From positions 1 through 20,887 of IMG/VR virus record IMGVR_UViG_3300036393_000021: a DNA stretch of 20,887 nucleotides. One strand, given 5' to 3'. Positions 6,320 through 18,557 of this stretch are shown piece after piece. Below the pieces are notes generated by a model, which saw nothing but the letters and a program-made list of their open reading frames with translations, was not told the DNA's origin and did not search any database. The position numbers and the translations under genes are program-made. Source of the stretch: a virus. Position 1 is the stretch's first letter. The number at the start of each line of letters is the position of its first letter.

Positions 6320-7194
6320 GCGAAGACCCCCGTGTAGATGATCTTGTTCTTGACGATCGCGGGCTGCACGTTCTGGCTGCCGCCGGCGCCCGCATTCTGG
6401 ACGCCGATGCCGGTGCCGCTGCCGTGGATGCCGATACCGGTGCCGTTGCCGTAGATGCCGATGCCGGTACCGGCACCATTGGTGTTCGGCGTCACGTAGT
6501 CGGTCGAATATCCCGACCCTGCCTGAACGCCGGCACTGCCGCCCGCCTGATAGACACCCCGATCGAGGCTGTGCGCGTGCCCGGGATCATAGACGCCATG
6601 CCCGTGCCCGGGATCGGCGACGCCGTGGCCATGGCCGGGATCGGCGATGCCGTGCGCATGTGCCTGGAGGGCCTGGTTGCCGCCGGCCGCGCCGAGTGTC
6701 GCGCCGGCGATGCCGCAGCCTGCGCTCGTGATCCGTCCGGCGGCGGTGCCGCCCATGGCGTCGCTCCCGATGGCGACGCGCCCGCGGCTGTCCGGCAGGG
6801 CGAAGGTGCTCGATCCGTTGCCGGCGCCGTAGGTGGTGCCGATGGCGGCGAAGAGCTCCGCGTAGGTGGTGCGGGAGACGTTGCTGCCGTCCTCCCAGAG
6901 GAAGCCGGCGGGCAGGCCGGTGCCGCTGTATTCGAGGGAGGTGCCGATCGGCAGGGCGGCGATCCTGAGGGCGCCGAGTGTCGCCCGTGCCGCGGTCGCG
7001 TCCGCGTCGTCGAGCAGCGTCCGCATGAAGGCGGTGACCGCTGCCGCCGGCAGCCGCGCCTCTGCCGCATCCCGCGCCGCCTGCACGGCCGCATCGAGGA
7101 TATCGGCATTGCCGTTCAGCATCGGCCCCCAGGCGTCGTCGTCGCCGCTCGGGTCGGGCTTGGTCAGCCCCAGATTTGGTGTGGTCGTGGCCAT
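6316..7194 (-). CDS. Tail fibre protein with collar domain and His-rich repeats
   Basis: 292 aa, ATG at 7194 with GGAGG seven bases upstream. The N-terminal anchor (NLGLTKPDPSGDDDAWGPML, then LNGNADILDAA) matches that of the other fibre gene. Residues about 82-150 form a phage tail collar domain (LPIGTSLEYSGTGLPAGFLW, YAELFAAIGTTYGAGNGSST, FALPDSRGRVAIG). Next come three HGIADPGHG-type repeats rich in HxH (about 180-208), like the metal-binding HxH sites in trimeric fibre tips. Three GTGIGI repeats (about 242-266) and a short tip ending NKIIYTGVFA follow. It probably contacts the host receptor. It is the first minus-strand gene after the plus-strand insert. Confidence 0.85.
   Translation of the reverse strand: MATTTPNLGLTKPDPSGDDDAWGPMLNGNADILDAAVQAARDAAEARLPAAAVTAFMRTLLDDADATAARATLGALRIAALPIGTSLEYSGTGLPAGFLWEDGSNVSRTTYAELFAAIGTTYGAGNGSSTFALPDSRGRVAIGSDAMGGTAAGRITSAGCGIAGATLGAAGGNQALQAHAHGIADPGHGHGVADPGHGHGVYDPGHAHSLDRGVYQAGGSAGVQAGSGYSTDYVTPNTNGAGTGIGIYGNGTGIGIHGSGTGIGVQNAGAGGSQNVQPAIVKNKIIYTGVFA
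6400..6471 (-). repeat. In-frame GTGIGI tandem repeat
   Basis: Three units of about 24 bp encode GTGIGIYGN, GTGIGIHGS and GTGIGVQNA near the fibre C-terminus, a short beta-structured shaft repeat just before the tip. Such repeats can change copy number by slippage. Confidence 0.7.
6571..6657 (-). repeat. In-frame HGxxDPGHG tandem repeat
   Basis: Three imperfect copies of about 30 bp inside the fibre gene encode HGIADPGHG, HGVADPGHG and HGVYDPGHA. On the plus strand they read as repeated 'cccgggatc...gccgtg' blocks. The His spacing suggests metal coordination along a trimer axis. Confidence 0.75.
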
Positions 7195-7363
7195 TCCGGC
7201 ACCTCCGCGATCCCTGTCCAGTTGGTCCGTCGCAGGTGCAAGTGGAAATTAGGCGGCCAGCCGGTTTTGCCTTATCAATCTTCTTCGCTGCAGGAAGCTG
7301 TCTTGATTTCGGCTCCAATGTTTATGCAAGTTCATCGTGTGCTAAAGGTGCAGGGAGCGGATT
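7195..7363. other. Divergent intergenic region between fibre gene and cargo gene
   Basis: 169 bp separate the fibre start (7194, minus) from the cargo gene start (7364, plus). Composition drops from GC-rich to AT-richer at about 7240-7260, marking one edge of the foreign segment. Any promoter for the plus-strand gene should lie here; the best I see is a TTGATT at about 7303 with no well-spaced -10 box, so no promoter is called. A ribosome site (AGGGAG, six bases before the GTG) is present at its right end. Confidence 0.5.
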
Positions 7364-8911
7364 GTGCGTGTTTTCCTACTCGAAAAGGTTCTGCTTTTTT
7401 TTATCGTTGTGGCATCGATCGCTCGGGCGCTTTCGTCGGGCAAGGACGTCAATTGGGATTTACAAAACTACCATCACTACGCGCCGTGGGCTCTAATTCA
7501 TGGTAGATATACTCAAGACGTGCTCGCCGGAAACTGGCAGTCATACCTGAATCCAACAATATACTTAATTCGATATGCCTCACTTTCATTCGGAACTTGG
7601 TGGTCAGCAATTATATTGTCTAGTCTACAGTCTATTGCACTTATTCTTACGTATAAGATTTCGAGTAATATTTTTCGCAAAGAGCCGATAAAGACGCGCT
7701 TTCAACTCGCATCATCTGCAACGTTTCTTGCCATGCTATCTCCAATTTTCGCATCCGAACTCGGCACTAGTTTCGTTGATGGATTACTTTGTGTTCCAAT
7801 GGTTGCTGCACTTCTACTTCTCAATGTAGATTCTCGTGGCGATCGAACATGGATTATGCTCAGCGTGTCTGGCGTGATGATGGGTTTTGCCGTTGGATTT
7901 AAAGTTACAAACGCTTTATTTCTTCCTGGTTATGCGTTGGCCGCCCTCCTCGGGCAGACATCCGGCGCCGCTATAGTTCGTACTGCATTGGCAACAGCAG
8001 TAGGCGGCATTGTCGGATTGATTGTTTCTGCGGGGCCTTGGGCTTATGTCATGTGGCGTGATTTTGGAAACCCATTCTTCCCGCTTGCCGGATTTATTAA
8101 TCCTCGCGAGGCGCTACTTGTAAACACTTACGATACAAATTTTCTGCCGGATGGAATCATTGGTGCTTTAATCTTGCCTCTGAAATGGGCGCTTGGCATA
8201 CAATCTACTGCTGAAATGGCGTTTACCGATATTCGTCCTGTAATACAACTATCAATTCTTTTTGCATTTTCTGCAAAAATTCTATTCTTAAAAAGAAGAA
8301 AACTACATATTGATGATCTAAATAAATGGCAAATTACTGTGTTCTTAGCGTTGGGAACTGTGATGTGGATTTCGACAAGTTCTATTCACAGGTATGCCGC
8401 AATTCTGGAATTGTTATTAGGTCCTAGTATCATCATTGGAGTATATTTTCTCTTTAATGTTAAGCGGGCGCTGCTAGTAGGCGCCGGGCTAATAATTTTG
8501 GCTGTATTAACAATCGATGTCCCTAATTGGCGGCATGTGCGGCCATTCGGGCAATCATATTTCGTTAACTCTCTACCATACAATCTTCCAGAAAATCCAA
8601 CTTTTATTCTGCTGCCTCAACGAGAATTACCTCTCGGATTTTTGGCTGCGGAGTTTCCATTAGGCTCTGTATTTATTCAAAGCGGGGTTGGGGATTTTTT
8701 TAGTTCCGACTCTGTTTTATATAGGAGGGCGCACGAAATAATATATAATACTCCTGTTAATAACCTACTGCTTCTAACGGACGGCAATCTGCAAGATAAT
8801 AACAATATATTGGTGGCGGGCGTCATTATGCGAAGGGAGGTGCCGTGCCAAGAAATACTAACGGTAGTTAGGAGTGTTTGGATATGTCCATTAATCGTCG
8901 ATAAAAGGTGA
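7364..8911 (+). CDS. GT-C-type membrane glycosyltransferase-like cargo gene (moron)
   Basis: 515 aa, GTG start with AGGGAG six bases upstream, ending TGA at 8911. It is a polytopic membrane protein with about ten hydrophobic segments up to residue 390, then a soluble C-terminal domain. After the first membrane helix comes KDVNWDLQNYHHYAPWALIH, with Asp28 and Asp32 where GT-C enzymes (ArnT/PMT type) carry their catalytic acid in the first periplasmic loop. Later YLNPTIYLIRYA and MGFAVGFKVTNALFLPGYAL also fit this superfamily. Such enzymes move sugars from lipid-linked donors to surface polysaccharides. It is opposite in strand to every neighbour and far more AT-rich (for example 18 of 60 G/C at 8221-8280, against 47 of 60 at 6001-6060). 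It lies between two fibre genes, so a lysogenic-conversion role is inferred. Substrate unknown. Confidence 0.8.
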   Translation: MRVFLLEKVLLFFIVVASIARALSSGKDVNWDLQNYHHYAPWALIHGRYTQDVLAGNWQSYLNPTIYLIRYASLSFGTWWSAIILSSLQSIALILTYKISSNIFRKEPIKTRFQLASSATFLAMLSPIFASELGTSFVDGLLCVPMVAALLLLNVDSRGDRTWIMLSVSGVMMGFAVGFKVTNALFLPGYALAALLGQTSGAAIVRTALATAVGGIVGLIVSAGPWAYVMWRDFGNPFFPLAGFINPREALLVNTYDTNFLPDGIIGALILPLKWALGIQSTAEMAFTDIRPVIQLSILFAFSAKILFLKRRKLHIDDLNKWQITVFLALGTVMWISTSSIHRYAAILELLLGPSIIIGVYFLFNVKRALLVGAGLIILAVLTIDVPNWRHVRPFGQSYFVNSLPYNLPENPTFILLPQRELPLGFLAAEFPLGSVFIQSGVGDFFSSDSVLYRRAHEIIYNTPVNNLLLLTDGNLQDNNNILVAGVIMRREVPCQEILTVVRSVWICPLIVDKR

Positions 8912-8923
8912 ATGTTTTTTACG

Positions 8924-9655
8924 CTATAGTGACAAAGAAAGTGACTTCATTATGAAAGCAAGCGAGTAGTAGGCAGGAGGTGTTTGTAGTGTGATGTTGT
9001 GTGTATGTGCCCCATCATTAAATATTCCATGTAGATGCGCCTGATTACCGCCACGGAAATCGGTCGCGATACCATGGGCGTGGGCGCCCTCCGCCGAAGT
9101 TCGAAATCCTTGGAAAACAGGGCTGTTATGGAAAATCGGGAAGGCACCGCCGGAGCCACCGGTCTGCCCTGGGATCGGTGCATCATGATCGTGATGGCCT
9201 TGGATATCAGTACTACCACCGTGTTGATGGTTCGGCATCTGCGCTTCGGTGATCGCATGCCCCGCCGTCGTTCCACCATGCGCATGCGCCCCCGCCGCCG
9301 CCGTACTCACCGTCACGCTGTCTGCGCCCCCGATGCTCCCAACCGGCCGTGTCGGCCCGGCCGCAACGATGAACTTGTCGCGCAGGTTCGGTGTGCCATT
9401 GCTGCCGTCGCACAGCCGCCAGCCGGCCGGGACCGCATTCTCCGCCCCGCTCCACATCGCGATGAGCCCCGCCGGCACCGCCACGGCCTCCAGCGCGTCG
9501 ACGCGGTCCTCGAGCGTCTCCAGCGCCATCTCCGTCTCCGTGGCGAACTGGTCGATCAGGTCCATGTCGCCGTTGAGCTTGTTCCCCCAGGTGTTGATGC
9601 TCTGGTTGATCTCCGGCTTGGTCAGGTTGAGCGTCGGCGTGAAGCTGTCGGCCAT
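8924..9655 (-). CDS. Tail fibre protein with collar-like domain; foreign-looking tip
   Basis: 243 aa, ATG at 9655 with GGAG seven bases upstream. The N-terminal anchor (FTPTLNLTKPEINQSINTWG, NKLNGDMDLIDQF) is shared with the downstream fibre. It is followed by a short coiled coil (ETEMALETLEDRVDALEAV), then a collar-type module (VPAGLIAMWSGAENAVPAGW, LCDGSNGTPNLRDKFIVAAG). The C-terminal half is His/Gly-rich (GAHAHGG, MPNHQHGG, GHHDHDAP, GAHTHNI) and ends PPAYYSLAFIMKSLSLSL, a usual ending for this class. The last 250-300 bp are clearly more AT-rich than the first half and abut the cargo gene, only 12 bp away tail to tail. It is probably a receptor-binding fibre. Confidence 0.85.
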   Translation of the reverse strand: MADSFTPTLNLTKPEINQSINTWGNKLNGDMDLIDQFATETEMALETLEDRVDALEAVAVPAGLIAMWSGAENAVPAGWRLCDGSNGTPNLRDKFIVAAGPTRPVGSIGGADSVTVSTAAAGAHAHGGTTAGHAITEAQMPNHQHGGSTDIQGHHDHDAPIPGQTGGSGGAFPIFHNSPVFQGFRTSAEGAHAHGIATDFRGGNQAHLHGIFNDGAHTHNITLQTPPAYYSLAFIMKSLSLSL

Positions 9656-9656
9656 C

Positions 9657-10169
9657 TCAGATCTCCTGCGGTGGCCGCGGCGCCCAGGCGGACGGCGGCG
9701 GCGGCGTGACGGGGTTCCAGGGGGCGCCGGCGCCCGGCACGGGCAGCGACGGCTGCCATGAGGGCATTGCCGGAAGGTCGTCCGGCCGATCCCACAGCTC
9801 GCGCAACCGGCCGCGCAGCGCAGCCTGTCCCAGGGCGCGCCCATTGGCGCCGAGCGTCCGCGCCAGGCCGCCCGTCATGTCGCTCAGCCCAGCCACGGCG
9901 GCCCCGCGGATGCCGTCGCGACGCACCGCGCCTTGCACGGCGCTTGAGGCCGCAGCGACGGCACCCGACGCCTTCGGGTTCAGCGCGACGGCCCGCGGCG
10001 CACCGGCAGCTGCCGCGAGGCCCTCCGCCTCCCGCACTCGCCGCACGCCGCCACACGCCTGGCCGGCGGCGGCTGCGCGCACGCCGGCCCGGTCCAGGCG
10101 CCAGCTGCCGAAGCCGGCGAAGCCGAAGGGGCCGTCGCCGAAGGGCCGCGTCCTCCCCACCACCGGCAT
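9657..10169 (-). CDS. Unknown phage protein upstream of fibre
   Basis: 170 aa from the ATG at 10169, one base overlapping the previous stop (TGATG). It opens MPVVGRTRPFGDGPFGFAGF, continues with Ala/Arg-rich helices (AVQGAVRRDGIRGAAVAGLS), and ends in a Pro-rich tail (PVPGAGAPWNPVTPPPPSAW). Translational coupling to a Gp80-like gene and the fibre supports expression. No family is recognised; a minor tail or fibre-attachment protein is possible. Confidence 0.6.
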   Translation of the reverse strand: MPVVGRTRPFGDGPFGFAGFGSWRLDRAGVRAAAAGQACGGVRRVREAEGLAAAAGAPRAVALNPKASGAVAAASSAVQGAVRRDGIRGAAVAGLSDMTGGLARTLGANGRALGQAALRGRLRELWDRPDDLPAMPSWQPSLPVPGAGAPWNPVTPPPPSAWAPRPPQEI

Positions 10170-14141: not shown

Positions 14142-14579
14142 CTACTGGTAGCGCGCCTCCCGGAACGCGCGCATCGCGGCATTGAGCGCGCGCACAGCCT
14201 CCCGCGGCACGGAGCCGAAGATGTGCCTTTCGCGGGGGGAAGGCGGGTCTATCCACTCGATCACGCCCACGAGGTGGGGGATGTCCCTGTGGCCAGGCCA
14301 ATACGGGGGTGGTTTGTCTCGATTGCCATTGAAGAAGCCATTTATGGGCCCCCGGGCAATGGGGAGGCTCGGAAGGTGCCAGAACGGTCGTATGAAGAAC
14401 CGTTTGCGGTACACACGGGCGATGTAGCCCCGCTTTATCCAAAGGCGTCCGCGATGGAATGCCGGCAAGCGCTGCCGCTTCATTCGCGTCAGCAAGGATG
14501 GTGGGTCATCCATGCCCCGGGGCTGATAGGGGATCGACGGATGCAGTTCCAGGAACGGGCGGCGAGCAGGGGTCTCCAT
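14142..14579 (-). CDS. Unknown basic protein, paralogue A
   Basis: 145 aa from the ATG at 14579 (METPARRPFLELHPSIPYQP); no strong ribosome site is seen. It is rich in Arg, Pro, Trp, Tyr and Phe. It aligns along its whole length with the protein at 14938-15393: SIPY near the start, RQRL, RGRxWxKxGYI, a central GFF, an IP before a hydrophobic strand, and the ending LNAAMRxFREARY. This shared amino-acid pattern with little shared DNA shows both are selected as proteins. No known family is recognised. It lies in the accessory block between portal and scaffold, just after an IS remnant. A toxin, anti-defence or structural role cannot be separated from sequence. Confidence 0.65.
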   Translation of the reverse strand: METPARRPFLELHPSIPYQPRGMDDPPSLLTRMKRQRLPAFHRGRLWIKRGYIARVYRKRFFIRPFWHLPSLPIARGPINGFFNGNRDKPPPYWPGHRDIPHLVGVIEWIDPPSPRERHIFGSVPREAVRALNAAMRAFREARYQ

Positions 14580-14604
14580 CGGGACTATCCGAAATTTCGC
14601 GTGA

Positions 14605-14771
14605 GATCGAGCTGATCGCCGCCCATTGCTAGCCGTGCCCCCCGGCGCCGTCCAGCACCAGCCGCACCCCACGCTCCCGAACCTCAGGCGAGTAGTTCGC
14701 CGCCGTCTTCTTTGCCGTCATCGCTCCATCCTCTCAACGGTTGGAGCCTCCGGCAAACCCGGCGCGGTTCG
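14605..14771 (-). mobile_element. IS3-family remnant: left end and start of orfA
   Basis: Minus-strand bases from 14771 read CGAACCGCGCCGGGTTTGCC, resembling the left inverted repeat of IS3-family (IS407-type) elements, which begin TGAACCGC. After about 50 bp an ATG at 14721 with GGAG upstream encodes MTAKKTAANYSPEVRERGVR, then LVLDGAGGHG, the N-terminus of an IS3-type OrfA. A TAG at 14629-14631 interrupts it, after which QWAAISSI continues in frame to about 14605 and homology ends. No orfB or right end is present, so it is dead. Confidence 0.78.
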
Positions 14772-14937: not shown

Positions 14938-15393
14938 TCAGCCCTGCGGCGCGGATCGGTATCGTGCCTCGCGAAAGCCGCGCATTGCCGCGTTGAGATC
15001 GCGGACCGCTTTGATATCGACGTCGCCGAGCGGCCACCGATACCCAATCCCAGGTGCGGGCGTAAAGAAAAGAACCACTTCGTTCATGTCGCAGGGAATA
15101 CGCCTGACGCCGGGCTGCAGGGGCCGTTCCTTATGCCTTTCCCCCCGGCAAAAGAAGCCGCCTCGATACGGTCTGACATAGGGCAGGGGAGGGACGTCCC
15201 AGCCTGGTCGAAACCTGTACAAGCGGCTGCGCCTAAGGCGGGAGATGTAGCCCTTCTTCTCCCACCGCCGTCCCCGGTAGACCTGACACAGGCGTTGTCG
15301 CAGCAGTCGCTTGTAAAGCGGCTGCGGGACATCCATGAACATCGGCAGGTAAGGGATGCTCTGCGGGTTGGACTTTGGCCGGTATAGCCTCAT
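14938..15393 (-). CDS. Unknown basic protein, paralogue B
   Basis: 151 aa taken from the ATG at 15393 (MRLYRPKSNPQSIPYLPMFM), because similarity to paralogue A (14142-14579) begins there; the open frame extends to an ATG at 15591. It is Arg/Tyr/Pro-rich, with RQRLCQVYRGRRWEKKGYIS and IKAVRDLNAAMRGFREARYR as the strongest shared blocks. It starts 31 bases after the restored stop of the frameshifted gene upstream, suggesting the pair was one transcription unit. An IS end lies just after its stop. Function unknown. Confidence 0.62.
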   Translation of the reverse strand: MRLYRPKSNPQSIPYLPMFMDVPQPLYKRLLRQRLCQVYRGRRWEKKGYISRLRRSRLYRFRPGWDVPPLPYVRPYRGGFFCRGERHKERPLQPGVRRIPCDMNEVVLFFTPAPGIGYRWPLGDVDIKAVRDLNAAMRGFREARYRSAPQG

Positions 15394-15424
15394 GGCCGGA
15401 CGATAGCCGATGCCGATCCCGCTT

Positions 15425-16490
15425 TCACCTCTCAGCGTCTCGCTGCTCCGGATCGGATGACGGCTCGGCGTCCAGAAGGCCACGCGTCGTGCCGGCACCA
15501 AGAACCACTGCGGGCCCAAGGCTGTTAAGCCCGACAATTCGACTGAGATAGGGGTGCGTATTGACGACTGAACGCAGGTAAGCCGCAGCATCCTATGGCA
15601 GTCGGAGGGTTCAGCTCGGGGCGAATGCGATAGCCCTGTCCCGCCAGTGCCCTGGCCACCCGGTCGATATCCTGCGGGCTCGCCGGCAGATTGGTTCCGT
15701 CCTCCAACCGGCCCGAACGATTAGGCGCTGTTATCGGGCGACCTTCCTGGTCCACGTTCATCCGACGCGGATCGACCACGGTGGCGAAGGCCGCCGCTTC
15801 CTCCGGCGTTGGTTCATGCGGAGAGGCAGGAAATCGTTCTTCGGAAGCGTCGGGCCCCGGCTCGTTCGATGACAGGGCGGCCCTATCGCCAGTTGGTTCA
15901 GACGGACCTGATCGATCGGGGCGCACTGCGTCCGGATTGATCGGAAGCCCAAGCCGTGACCGGGGGACGACAGGGGGAGGCGTTGCCGCCGCTGCAATCT
16001 CGTCACCGGGCATCGGTCCTGGCGGCCCGCCATTGTGCCCGATGCCGATCCGCCGGGCGGCGTCCGCGCCGTCCTCCGCGGCGCTCACGCCCAACCGGCG
16101 CCCCGCGCCCCAGCCTTCCCGCCTGGCTTGCGCGACGGCTGCCTCGCTCGCGGTGGTGGCGCGCGTCGCGGCCCGCGCCGCGTGGCGCCCTATCCGATCG
16201 ATCGGGCCGCCTTCCGCCTCGCTCGAATTGCCCAGCAGCAAGCCGCCGGCCGCGAGCGGGATACGCACCTGAGGCGGCATGGGCAAGCCGGTCGCGGCTT
16301 GGACAGCGACATCGCCGGCATTCTGCGGCGTCGCCAACTGCGCAGCCAGGCGCGCAGTCCACCAGGGCGCCGGATTGCGCGCTTCCTGGATGCGCCTGCG
16401 AAGCGCATCGAAGTGAGGTTGGACGAAAGGGCGATAGGGAACATCACTGTACAGCAGACCTCCGCTCGGATCGTCTCCGGCGACGCTCAT
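15425..16490 (-). pseudogene. Frameshifted accessory protein with VDxEGRPxTAP motif
   Basis: The ATG at 16490 overlaps the previous stop (ATGA). Residues 1-299 look coding: an N-terminus with PYRPFVQPHFDALRRRIQEA, a helical hydrophobic part (QVRIPLAAGGLLLG), IGIGHNGGPP (148-157, a motif frequent in alphaproteobacterial phage proteins), a Pro-rich linker, and VDQEGRPITAPNRSGR (246-261), shared with the gene at 17115-18557. After residue 299 this frame becomes Cys-rich and stops at 15525. One base further on, the +1 frame reads DAAAYLRSVVNTHPYLSRIV, then GLNSLGPAVVLGAGTTRGLL, and stops at 15425, a clearly better C-terminus. One skipped base near 15593 restores 354 aa. It is probably a member of the polyvalent/accessory virion proteins. 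A programmed shift is possible but no slippery site is evident. Confidence 0.65.
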
Positions 16491-17320
16491 CGCATCCTCC
16501 CCAGCAGGGTGTTGAAGGCGGGATTGCCGGCGAGCCCCGCCGCGCCATAGCGCGGCATCACGCCGATCTGCTGCAGCCGCGCGAGCGTCGCCGGGCCCAG
16601 GCCGTAGCCCGGTGGGGCGTCGCTCGGCAGGCCGAGATTGGGCACCGGCGGCAGGCCGCCGCCCGCGGGCGACGTTGCCGGTCCCGGCGGCGCCGGCAAC
16701 GGCCGCAGCGCCACGATCGTCGGCGCCGCCGCCGGGAAGGCGCCGTAGTCGTAGCTCGGCACCGGCATCGCCGCCGCCGCGCCGGCATTGGTGCCGCCGG
16801 CAATGAAGTTTCGCGGCGTCTGGTCGATCGGCGTGGTCAGCGCGCTGCGCCAGGCGGCCAGTTGCGCGGCGCGCGGATCCGGCCCCAACGGCAGCAACTC
16901 GCGGACGGCGTTGCCGAAGCCGGCATCGCCGTTGCCGCCGCTGCCGTCGCTGGTCCCGCTCGGGCTGTTGCCGTGGCCATCCGCCGCACCGGCATCGCCA
17001 TGGCCATCGGCGGCACCGCTGTCGCCATGCCCGTCGCTGCCGTCGCCGCCATCCGAACCCGCGCCGTCACCGCCATCGCCGCCGCCATCGCCGCCGCCAT
17101 CCCCGTCGCCGCCATCATCGAAGGCCGGCACGCCCGCCGGCCCGCGCAAGGGTCGGCCGTCCCGCGTCAGGCCGCCGCCGCGCGCCCGCAGCAGCGCCGC
17201 TTCCGCTGCGGTGATGTAGGCCAGGTGATGCGGCGTGCCGCGCACCAGCGCGCGTCGCGGCGCATCCACCCGCGCGCTGCGTGCGCCGGGCGGGCCGCCG
17301 AGAAGGCCGGGAATGCTCAT
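16487..17320 (-). CDS. Gly/Asp-repeat phage protein
   Basis: 277 aa from the ATG at 17320 (MSIPGLLGGPPG), which has GGAG seven bases upstream. An upstream in-frame ATG lies inside or next to the REP-like repeat and lacks a site. Residues 30-50 (PHHLAYITAAEAALLRARGG) form an 'AYIT..EAALLRA.GG' motif that I associate with podoviral proteins encoded near the portal or tail. Residues 68-132 are almost only Gly, Asp, Ser and His, including ADGHGDAGA-type repeats. The C-terminal half is Pro/Ala-rich and ends NPAFNTLLGRMR. It is acidic and probably disordered in the middle. Virion role unknown. Its stop overlaps the next start. Confidence 0.65.
   Translation of the reverse strand: MSIPGLLGGPPGARSARVDAPRRALVRGTPHHLAYITAAEAALLRARGGGLTRDGRPLRGPAGVPAFDDGGDGDGGGDGGGDGGDGAGSDGGDGSDGHGDSGAADGHGDAGAADGHGNSPSGTSDGSGGNGDAGFGNAVRELLPLGPDPRAAQLAAWRSALTTPIDQTPRNFIAGGTNAGAAAAMPVPSYDYGAFPAAAPTIVALRPLPAPPGPATSPAGGGLPPVPNLGLPSDAPPGYGLGPATLARLQQIGVMPRYGAAGLAGNPAFNTLLGRMR
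16925..17119 (-). repeat. Gly/Asp low-complexity coding repeat
   Basis: About 195 bp of 'gccgccatc'-type triplets encode an acidic Gly/Asp/Ser/His stretch. It contains short tandem units (DGHGDSGAA, DGHGDAGAA, DGHGNS). It is a likely slippage hotspot. Confidence 0.7.
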
Positions 17321-18557
17321 GGGGCTGCTCCGGATATCGGGGGTGGCGGCGTCGCGTGCCGTCATTGTCTTCACCCAAGCGGCTATCCAGAGCGCAGCGA
17401 AGCGGTGCAAGTTCGGACGTGAGGCGGTGGGCAGCCTGTCGGATTCCGAAGCTGCATGTCCGGTCTGATTGGGGGGCGCTCCAACGCGGCGTGCCGGTCC
17501 GATGGCCGCCCTGATCATGGAGCCGGCCAAGCTCCGCACCTGCCCGCGACGTGAGACGCGCGTCGCCTGATCGAATCAGATGGGCCAGATGCCCGATCTC
17601 GTGCGCCTCCGTCATGTCGCCATAGGGCTGGTCGCGGCGTATGTAGGCTTCCGCCACAGCGCGGGCGCGCTCACCACGGCCCGCCAATCGCCCGTCGGGA
17701 ATGCGGACCATGCCAAGCGCATCGCGGCGCGGCATTTCCTCCGCCGACAAACCGCGGCGGACGCCGCCGCCCGCAAGATCGTCTAGTAGCGTACCAACGG
17801 CCTCCACGGAGGAACGCGGAAGCACGTTCCCGGCCGCGTCCCGTCCGAAAATCCGAGGCGCGGTGAGAGGTCGCCCTTCGGGGTCCACCGTGGCTCGCGG
17901 AGGTGCTGCGCCAGAGCCTGTCGGCGCATCCGTTCCCACAGGGTCGGGCGCGGCTGGGCGCCCAGGGGGAAGTATGGGATCATCGCCAACAGTATAACGC
18001 ACAATCGGCCGTTCCGTACCTCCGGAAGCGCCGCCTGAGCCCTCATCGGCAGCACGCCGTGCGCTGGCCTCTGTGCCGCGCTCCGCGGGAACTGCCGGTA
18101 CGGGATCGTCCACGGGACCAAGGGCGCGGTTGCGCCGCCTGGCGACGCCGCCCGCTTCACGGGCCACATCCTCAGTCATGCCTTGCGCAGCCAGACGGCC
18201 GGCCCTTGCCGTCCCGGCTCGCGCGGCGCCCTCCGCCAGGGACCGCGCACCCTGCCTGACCGGGCCGGCTTCGGCGCGCGAAGCCTCGAGGCTCGCCAGG
18301 CCGCCGGCGAGCAGCGTCCGCATCGCGCGGCCGCCAGGACCGAATGCCACCATGAGCGCGGCATCGAGCGGGCTCTGCGGCAGGAGGAGTTCGGACGTCA
18401 GATCCGCGGCCTGCCGCCCCGCCTGCGCCAGGGCGTGGCGCTGCTCCTCCCAGCTCGGCATCGTCGTGCGACCCGTGTCGCGCTCCATGCGCGCCAGCAG
18501 CCGCGCGTCATAGGCTTCGTCGGACATGGGATCGTCGAGAAGTCCCCTGGAAGTCAT
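17115..18557 (-). CDS. Metallopeptidase-like accessory (polyvalent-type) protein, C-terminus truncated
   Basis: The ATG at 18557 overlaps the portal stop (ATGA); the frame is open for 480 codons. Residues 1-150 are helical with a hydrophobic patch (SPLDAALMVAFGPGGRAMRT). A Pro/Gly linker follows, then VDPEGRPLTAPRIFGR (224-239), shared with the gene at 15425-16490. Then comes MTEAHEIGHLAHLI, whose H319-E-I-G-H323 is an HExxH zinc-peptidase motif, with an Arg-rich helix before it. From about residue 358 (base 17484) the frame runs into an IS-end-like sequence, a REP-like repeat and the antiphase of the next gene, so the native C-terminus is lost, perhaps with a third zinc ligand. Proteins of this plan after phage portals fit the polyvalent proteins described in phages and conjugative elements, thought to be delivered with DNA. 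Activity is doubtful in this copy. Confidence 0.6.
   Translation of the reverse strand: MTSRGLLDDPMSDEAYDARLLARMERDTGRTTMPSWEEQRHALAQAGRQAADLTSELLLPQSPLDAALMVAFGPGGRAMRTLLAGGLASLEASRAEAGPVRQGARSLAEGAARAGTARAGRLAAQGMTEDVAREAGGVARRRNRALGPVDDPVPAVPAERGTEASARRAADEGSGGASGGTERPIVRYTVGDDPILPPGRPAAPDPVGTDAPTGSGAAPPRATVDPEGRPLTAPRIFGRDAAGNVLPRSSVEAVGTLLDDLAGGGVRRGLSAEEMPRRDALGMVRIPDGRLAGRGERARAVAEAYIRRDQPYGDMTEAHEIGHLAHLIRSGDARLTSRAGAELGRLHDQGGHRTGTPRWSAPQSDRTCSFGIRQAAHRLTSELAPLRCALDSRLGEDNDGTRRRHPRYPEQPHEHSRPSRRPARRTQRAGGCAATRAGARHAASPGLHHRSGSGAAAGARRRPDAGRPTLARAGGRAGLR
17366..17411 (-). repeat. REP-like 46-bp repeat, copy 2
   Basis: Same-orientation partner of 13953-13998 (39 of 46 identical by eye, all differences transitions). 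It ends two bases before an ATG (caATG) that is open into the Gly/Asp-repeat gene but is probably not its true start. It separates that gene from the IS end at 17451-17484. Confidence 0.65.
17451..17484 (-). repeat. Solo IS-end-like sequence
   Basis: On the minus strand it reads TTGGAGCGCCCCCCAATCAG, then ACCGGACATGCAGC. It matches the outer end of the IS remnant at 14890-14923 in 27 of 34 positions and the same orientation. No transposase start follows it. It coincides with the point where the metallopeptidase-like gene loses coding character. Confidence 0.55.

Follow-up and report, generated by a model that had tools for sequence, protein, structure and literature searches.

A predicted stand-alone GT-C glycosyltransferase gene in a variable slot between the tail-fibre genes of an SU10-type short-tailed phage

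The locus and its foreign composition

The window, that is, the whole stretch of DNA analysed here, is the 20,887-base IMG/VR record IMGVR_UViG_3300036393_000021, which is probably a fragment of a phage genome. It contains a structural module with genes for the portal, the major capsid protein (MCP), an ejection-protein-like product, a phage lysozyme and two collar/tail-fibre proteins, all on the minus strand. By the family matches of the portal (E 2e-181) and the MCP (E 2e-88), this is the module of a short-tailed phage of the SU10 type, with soil-type bacteria as hosts and related podoviruses in Acetobacteraceae. Portal relatives include Sinorhizobium phage phiM5 (46% identity), which has been described as temperate (PMC10386132). 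Elsewhere in the window, two adjoining small minus-strand frames (14142-14672 and 14938-15591) have the common ending ..LNAAMR.FREARY.. and appear to be tandem paralogues. The minus-strand frame at 17115-18557 and its relatives in locus L190 (6893-8152 and 9983-11239) lie between portal and capsid genes and encode proteins with an HExxH zinc-metallopeptidase-like motif (HEIGH or HEVGH), and several copies of such HExxH proteins occur in the Acetobacteraceae genome G178.

The features of the locus are collected in Table 1. As the earlier note had described, the gene under study is wedged between the two tail-fibre genes, is the sole plus-strand gene, since every other gene-like frame with a family match in the window lies on the minus strand, and is strikingly AT-rich. 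Its intact frame opens with GTG and has a G+C content of 0.43 and a GC3 of 0.376, compared with about 70% G+C and a GC3 of about 0.9 in its neighbours and a GC3 of 0.86-0.94 in the portal, MCP, lysozyme and ejection-protein genes. No sigma-70-type promoter was found for the gene, which is a weak test for an alphaproteobacterium, and terminator-like sites around it were no commoner than in shuffled sequences. The lack of a visible GtrB or flippase (GtrA) partner, also remarked on earlier, holds for the 20.9-kb window, which is probably a fragment; no gtrA or gtrB adjoins the gene there, and the related phage contigs show none either.

Table 1. Features of the fibre-gene region (positions in the window)
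Feature	Position	Strand	Basis or remark
Collar/tail-fibre gene 1, 292 aa	6316..7194	-	Pfam Collar, E 2e-17
Leader of fibre gene 1 with its ribosome-binding site, conserved; TGGACAGGGATCGNGGAGGTNCC	7195..7221	-	Common to L005 and the G178 prophage; fixed slot border
Variable slot	7222..8923		Comparison with L095, L013, L005 and the G178 prophage
Plausible ribosome-binding site GCAGGGAGCG, just 5' of the GTG start of the GT-C gene	7350..7359	+	Candidate, read directly from the sequence
Stand-alone gene for a predicted GT-C-fold glycosyltransferase, 515 aa	7364..8911	+	Open reading frame, composition, alignment, AF2 model, Foldseek
Collar/tail-fibre gene 2, 243 aa	8924..9655	-	Tail-fibre PHROGs, down to E 1e-25

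The AT-rich island exceeds the GT-C gene and reaches into fibre gene 2, over its final third. This fibre gene is in frame and homologous to its relatives over the whole length (59-70% identity), and its GC3 is 1.0 in the first 60 codons, which is phage-like, and 0.49 from codon 131 to the end. The last third of the same gene in the relatives has a GC3 of 0.67-0.81 (0.76 in the viral contig L005, 0.67 in L013 and 0.81 in L095, the phage with an empty slot). Because the end of fibre gene 2 is also low in GC3, the foreign island is placed at about 7222-9300. The island is bracketed by 12-nt inverted repeats (7327-7338 and 9366-9377), and an invertible segment was considered and rejected, as 42% of 200 shuffles hold such a pair and inversion would truncate fibre gene 2.

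Fold, family and genomic neighbourhoods

The AF2 model of the protein is confident (pLDDT 90.8, pTM 0.92), and Foldseek places it among GT-C enzymes, which make up its top structural matches in the PDB at a probability of 1.00. The best match was ArnT (5f15; E 8e-6, probability 1.00, TM 0.54), followed by archaeal and human oligosaccharyltransferases, ALG3, ALG9 and AftB. Membership of the predicted protein in the GT-C superfamily, which the earlier note had proposed from the letters alone, is therefore well supported by the model. The model has about 11-12 long transmembrane helices, within the superfamily range of 7-13, and a C-terminal alpha/beta domain from about residue 384. Helix 2-25 is followed by the first extracytoplasmic loop with GKDVNWDLQNYHHY, and the motif WDLQNYHHY (residues 31-39) and the acidic residues Asp28 and Asp32 were found where they had been described; both aspartates come directly after the helix, in keeping with the acidic first loop of GT-C enzymes, and are invariant in 68 of 68 aligned sequences. 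The 68-row alignment contains 13 invariant residues (G26, D28, D32, Y36, H37, D52, G174, K180, P237, P240, P272, R343 and Y344), and the window protein retains all 13. From their conservation and position, D28, D32, D52, K180 and R343 are the putative active site. Two cysteines of the C-terminal domain, C495 and C508, are nearly invariant and may form a periplasmic disulfide.

Sequence searches gave little beyond this family. The protein's Pfam match to PMT_2 (PF13231) was sub-threshold (16.8 bits, E 0.008; gathering score 26.1), and 8 of the 68 aligned members match PMT_2 with E-values of 0.001 or lower. No match came from PHROGs, NCBIfam or PDB sequences, solved structures searched by single sequence and by profile gave no meaningful one, and the model had no match at E 0.001 in the viral structure library. 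IMG/VR and phage records returned no other viral relative, and the gene was found in one record only; locus L002, a candidate viral homologue, was a false match, antisense to a protease/capsid-type reading frame. No close homologue was found. A scan of 84,980 genomes returned 211 loci with relatives, the best 80 of which show 23-33% identity and come mostly from Pseudomonadota; the family is widespread in bacterial chromosomes and has no curated model.

Most family members adjoin a GtrB-like or GtrA gene: a GT2/GtrB-like gene is nearby in 63 of 82 loci and a GtrA gene in 30 of 82, counts that are approximate because the homology model was iterated. In the tree, the window gene lies on a long branch in a five-row clade (support 100/98) with the alphaproteobacterial loci L014-L017, from Rhodospirillales, Acetobacteraceae, Tardiphaga and Bradyrhizobiaceae. 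The genes at these four loci stand alone, with no GT2/GtrB-like or GtrA gene nearby, and lie outside obvious O-antigen clusters. The three host genomes searched (L014, L015 and L016) each encode a GtrA and a GtrB homologue elsewhere, and G178 encodes a GtrB homologue (42% identity) with GtrA 127 nt away on one contig. A phage need not bring these partners, since its potential hosts can encode both, and a host-made donor is available in principle; a one-gene conversion system, which had been raised earlier, is not favoured over host partners.

The variable slot and the related prophage

Besides the window, three viral contigs and one prophage cover the region between the fibre genes, and wider searches returned only these same four; the comparison thus comprises five cases, which are few. 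Portal identity is 75-89% where measured. The slot is empty in L095, with fibre gene 2 extending over the start of fibre gene 1. It is occupied by a methyltransferase gene in L013 and by a Methyltransf_11 gene in L005, both on the strand of the fibres; the two are different SAM methyltransferases (24% identity over 123 residues). The G178 prophage has an FkbM-like gene (E 2e-4, just below the cut-off) on the opposite strand, as is the GT-C gene in the window. The fibre-1 leader that borders the slot is weaker in L013 and absent in L095. Beyond the cargo of G178, the 3' end of fibre gene 2 recurs as a 37-nt copy (86%); this copy is a trace of how cargo genes enter, and it indicates that exchanges happen at the end of the fibre gene.

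Because relatives without the GT-C gene carry other genes at the same spot, the GT-C gene is foreign cargo, and since these are different enzymes of surface-modifying type or nothing at all, the site resembles an exchange slot that serves to alter the coat recognised by the fibres. Presence or absence at one site among close relatives together with foreign composition is what marks a moron, and the GT-C gene shows both. The earlier description of the gene as a lysogenic-conversion moron thus stands as to foreign cargo, and on the lysogenic side it gains a related prophage, a finding that concerns the relative only.

That prophage was found among 397 Acetobacteraceae genomes, the family having been drawn around the metagenome-assembled genome of L015; an MCP with 92% identity occurs in one of them, G178. 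On contig C69 of this one draft assembly, the sequence is homologous to the phage (81-82% DNA identity) up to about 10,341, and LysR, SDR and other chromosomal genes come next. A related phage is therefore present as a prophage in an Acetobacteraceae genome, and integration is observed for this relative only. The phage-bearing contigs of G178 carry no integrase, all viral records are fragments, and neither an integrase nor an attachment site was seen in the phage group. A tRNA at the G178 junction was rejected as attachment site because the nearest one lies some 2 kb from it, and the tRNA-Ala called within the phage part is a 92-nt prediction of doubtful value.

Other cargo was observed in the phage group. 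At L109 (11018-12660), genes of lower G+C (0.54-0.59) are flanked by the lysis genes and the phrog_3287 gene, a place that may serve the group as a second variable cargo slot. At the same place inside the G178 prophage (contig C69; L194, 5192-6828), a minus-strand ACC deaminase gene (TIGR01274, 594.7 bits, cut-off 392) lies beside a plus-strand Lrp-type regulator, a pair which we take to be plant-ethylene-related cargo. Large membrane proteins are encoded on the opposite strand beside the portal or between head genes (L012, 3460-6147; L190, 4035-6608 and 15847-17202). A sub-threshold patatin-like motif (E 3e-4 to 5e-4) was seen in the L012 copy and the second L190 copy, and the first L190 copy has similar GGG.R / G.SGGS residues. 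Beyond the patatin-like gene of L012, the frame at 6520-9939 has eight passenger-associated-transport repeats (autotransporter-like) and is possibly host sequence beside a prophage end.

Proposed function and relation to known systems

On balance, the GT-C gene is probably a horizontally acquired lysogenic-conversion moron whose product would transfer sugar from a host-made polyprenyl-phosphate carrier to a host surface glycan and lower adsorption. The analysis itself provides the fold, the conserved putative active site, the slot and its turnover, the foreign composition, the related prophage and the host-encoded GtrA and GtrB; from these we infer the donor, the acceptor, expression from the gene's own promoter and the effect on adsorption. 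In the lysogen, the gene would be expressed from its own promoter, while GtrB- and GtrA-type proteins of the host would make and flip the polyprenyl-phosphate-sugar. The inner-membrane enzyme would then move the sugar, on the periplasmic side, onto a host glycan such as the O-antigen, the capsule or another envelope polysaccharide. Phages bearing the same fibres would adsorb less to cells with the altered glycan, presumably the receptor of the neighbouring fibres, and released progeny would re-adsorb less. The slot itself is repeatedly refilled with enzymes of surface-modifying type.

It is possible, though less likely, that the target of the enzyme is an envelope component distinct from the fibre receptor (lipid A, as for ArnT, another polysaccharide or a protein), with a host benefit unrelated to adsorption, and that the slot is merely a tolerant insertion site. 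Some GT-C enzymes modify proteins or lipid A instead of surface polysaccharide, and ArnT is the best structural match; moreover, no obvious O-antigen cluster surrounds the nearest genomic relatives, and the related phages carry non-surface cargo such as the ACC deaminase and Lrp-type regulator of the G178 prophage. However, the family is mostly linked to GtrB/GtrA genes, a polysaccharide-glucosylation module, and all four filled versions of the slot hold a glycosyltransferase or a methyltransferase, which is suggestive only, because methyltransferases have many other substrates.

The single composition island (GC3 0.38 in the GT-C gene) and the fibre-end copy flanking the G178 cargo are also what would be expected if the GT-C gene had arrived from a relative together with the AT-rich end of fibre gene 2 as one functional cassette, in which a new fibre tip is matched to an enzyme that alters or hides its receptor. 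We consider this unlikely, as the fibre end is only mildly lower in GC3 in L005 and L013 (compare the empty-slot phage), and fibre tips can be atypical on their own. That the gene is a decaying passenger or an assembly chimera without function in the phage is highly improbable: it would agree with the single viral record and with the lack of a promoter-like site, but the frame is complete with every invariant residue kept, both junctions fall at a slot which three independent sequences also have filled, and the change in composition leaves the frame of fibre gene 2 unbroken.

A broader proposal is tentative and rather doubtful, namely that the site is a receptor-remodelling slot of Acetobacteraceae podoviruses in which the distal part of the fibre and a matching enzyme (methyltransferase, FkbM-like or lone GT-C) are exchanged together. 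If this were true, recognition and self-exclusion would evolve as one unit, with the GT-C enzyme drawing on host donor lipids. With one empty slot and four different cargoes, the group offers a clean comparative system in which the link between fibre tip and receptor enzyme is testable.

The moron proposed here resembles the gtrABC systems of phages P22, SfV and SfII, in which a polytopic glycosyltransferase encoded by the phage is proposed to draw on a polyprenyl-phosphate sugar outside the cytoplasm and converts the surface of the host (PMC3688519). Like these phages, the window phage carries a predicted polytopic glycosyltransferase; unlike them, it has no gtrA or gtrB beside it, and whereas the gtr genes of P22 lie next to int, the GT-C gene is flanked by fibre genes and runs on the opposite strand. 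The earlier comparison with serotype-converting phages thus concerns function and does not extend to sequence: a relation to P22 GtrC was rejected (hhalign gave a probability of 0.4%, and BLASTP an E of 0.018 over a membrane stretch), and GtrC families in general have little sequence in common (PMC3688519). In prophage BTP1, a single gene, gtrC, changes the O-antigen and blocks superinfection by phages that use the same receptor as well as re-adsorption (PMC4413052). BTP1 GtrC is an acetyltransferase that needs no lipid-linked sugar donor, unlike the reaction proposed for the window enzyme, so that BTP1 is a precedent for the effect and not for the chemistry, and the gtrB-less gtrC operons of Salmonella are weaker as a precedent for a stand-alone glycosyltransferase.

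ArnT, a 4-amino-arabinose transferase, has a TM score of about 0.5 and 12% identity to the window protein, and lipid A is not implied as the acceptor. The nearest relatives, the genes of L014-L017 (about 30% identity), are likewise without a GT2 or GtrA neighbour, but they are chromosomal and have about 64-70% G+C. The Bartonella HY038 and Polaromonas JS666 plasmid copies belong to the same family (26-30% identity) and, unlike the window gene, are part of complete GT-C/GtrB/GtrA sets. On Polaromonas JS666 plasmid 2 (L004, 3900-9717), methyltransferase, GT-C, glycosyltransferase and GtrA genes lie directly 3' of the pilV shufflon adhesin, another adhesin paired with genes of surface-modifying type. 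What is new in the present case is the slot with its turnover, together with the link to a prophage and the partners encoded by the host. Phage-driven surface conversion is known mostly from enterobacterial gtrABC phages, and the locus described here would add to its range both SU10-type podoviruses of Acetobacteraceae and a GT-C family that has no curated model.
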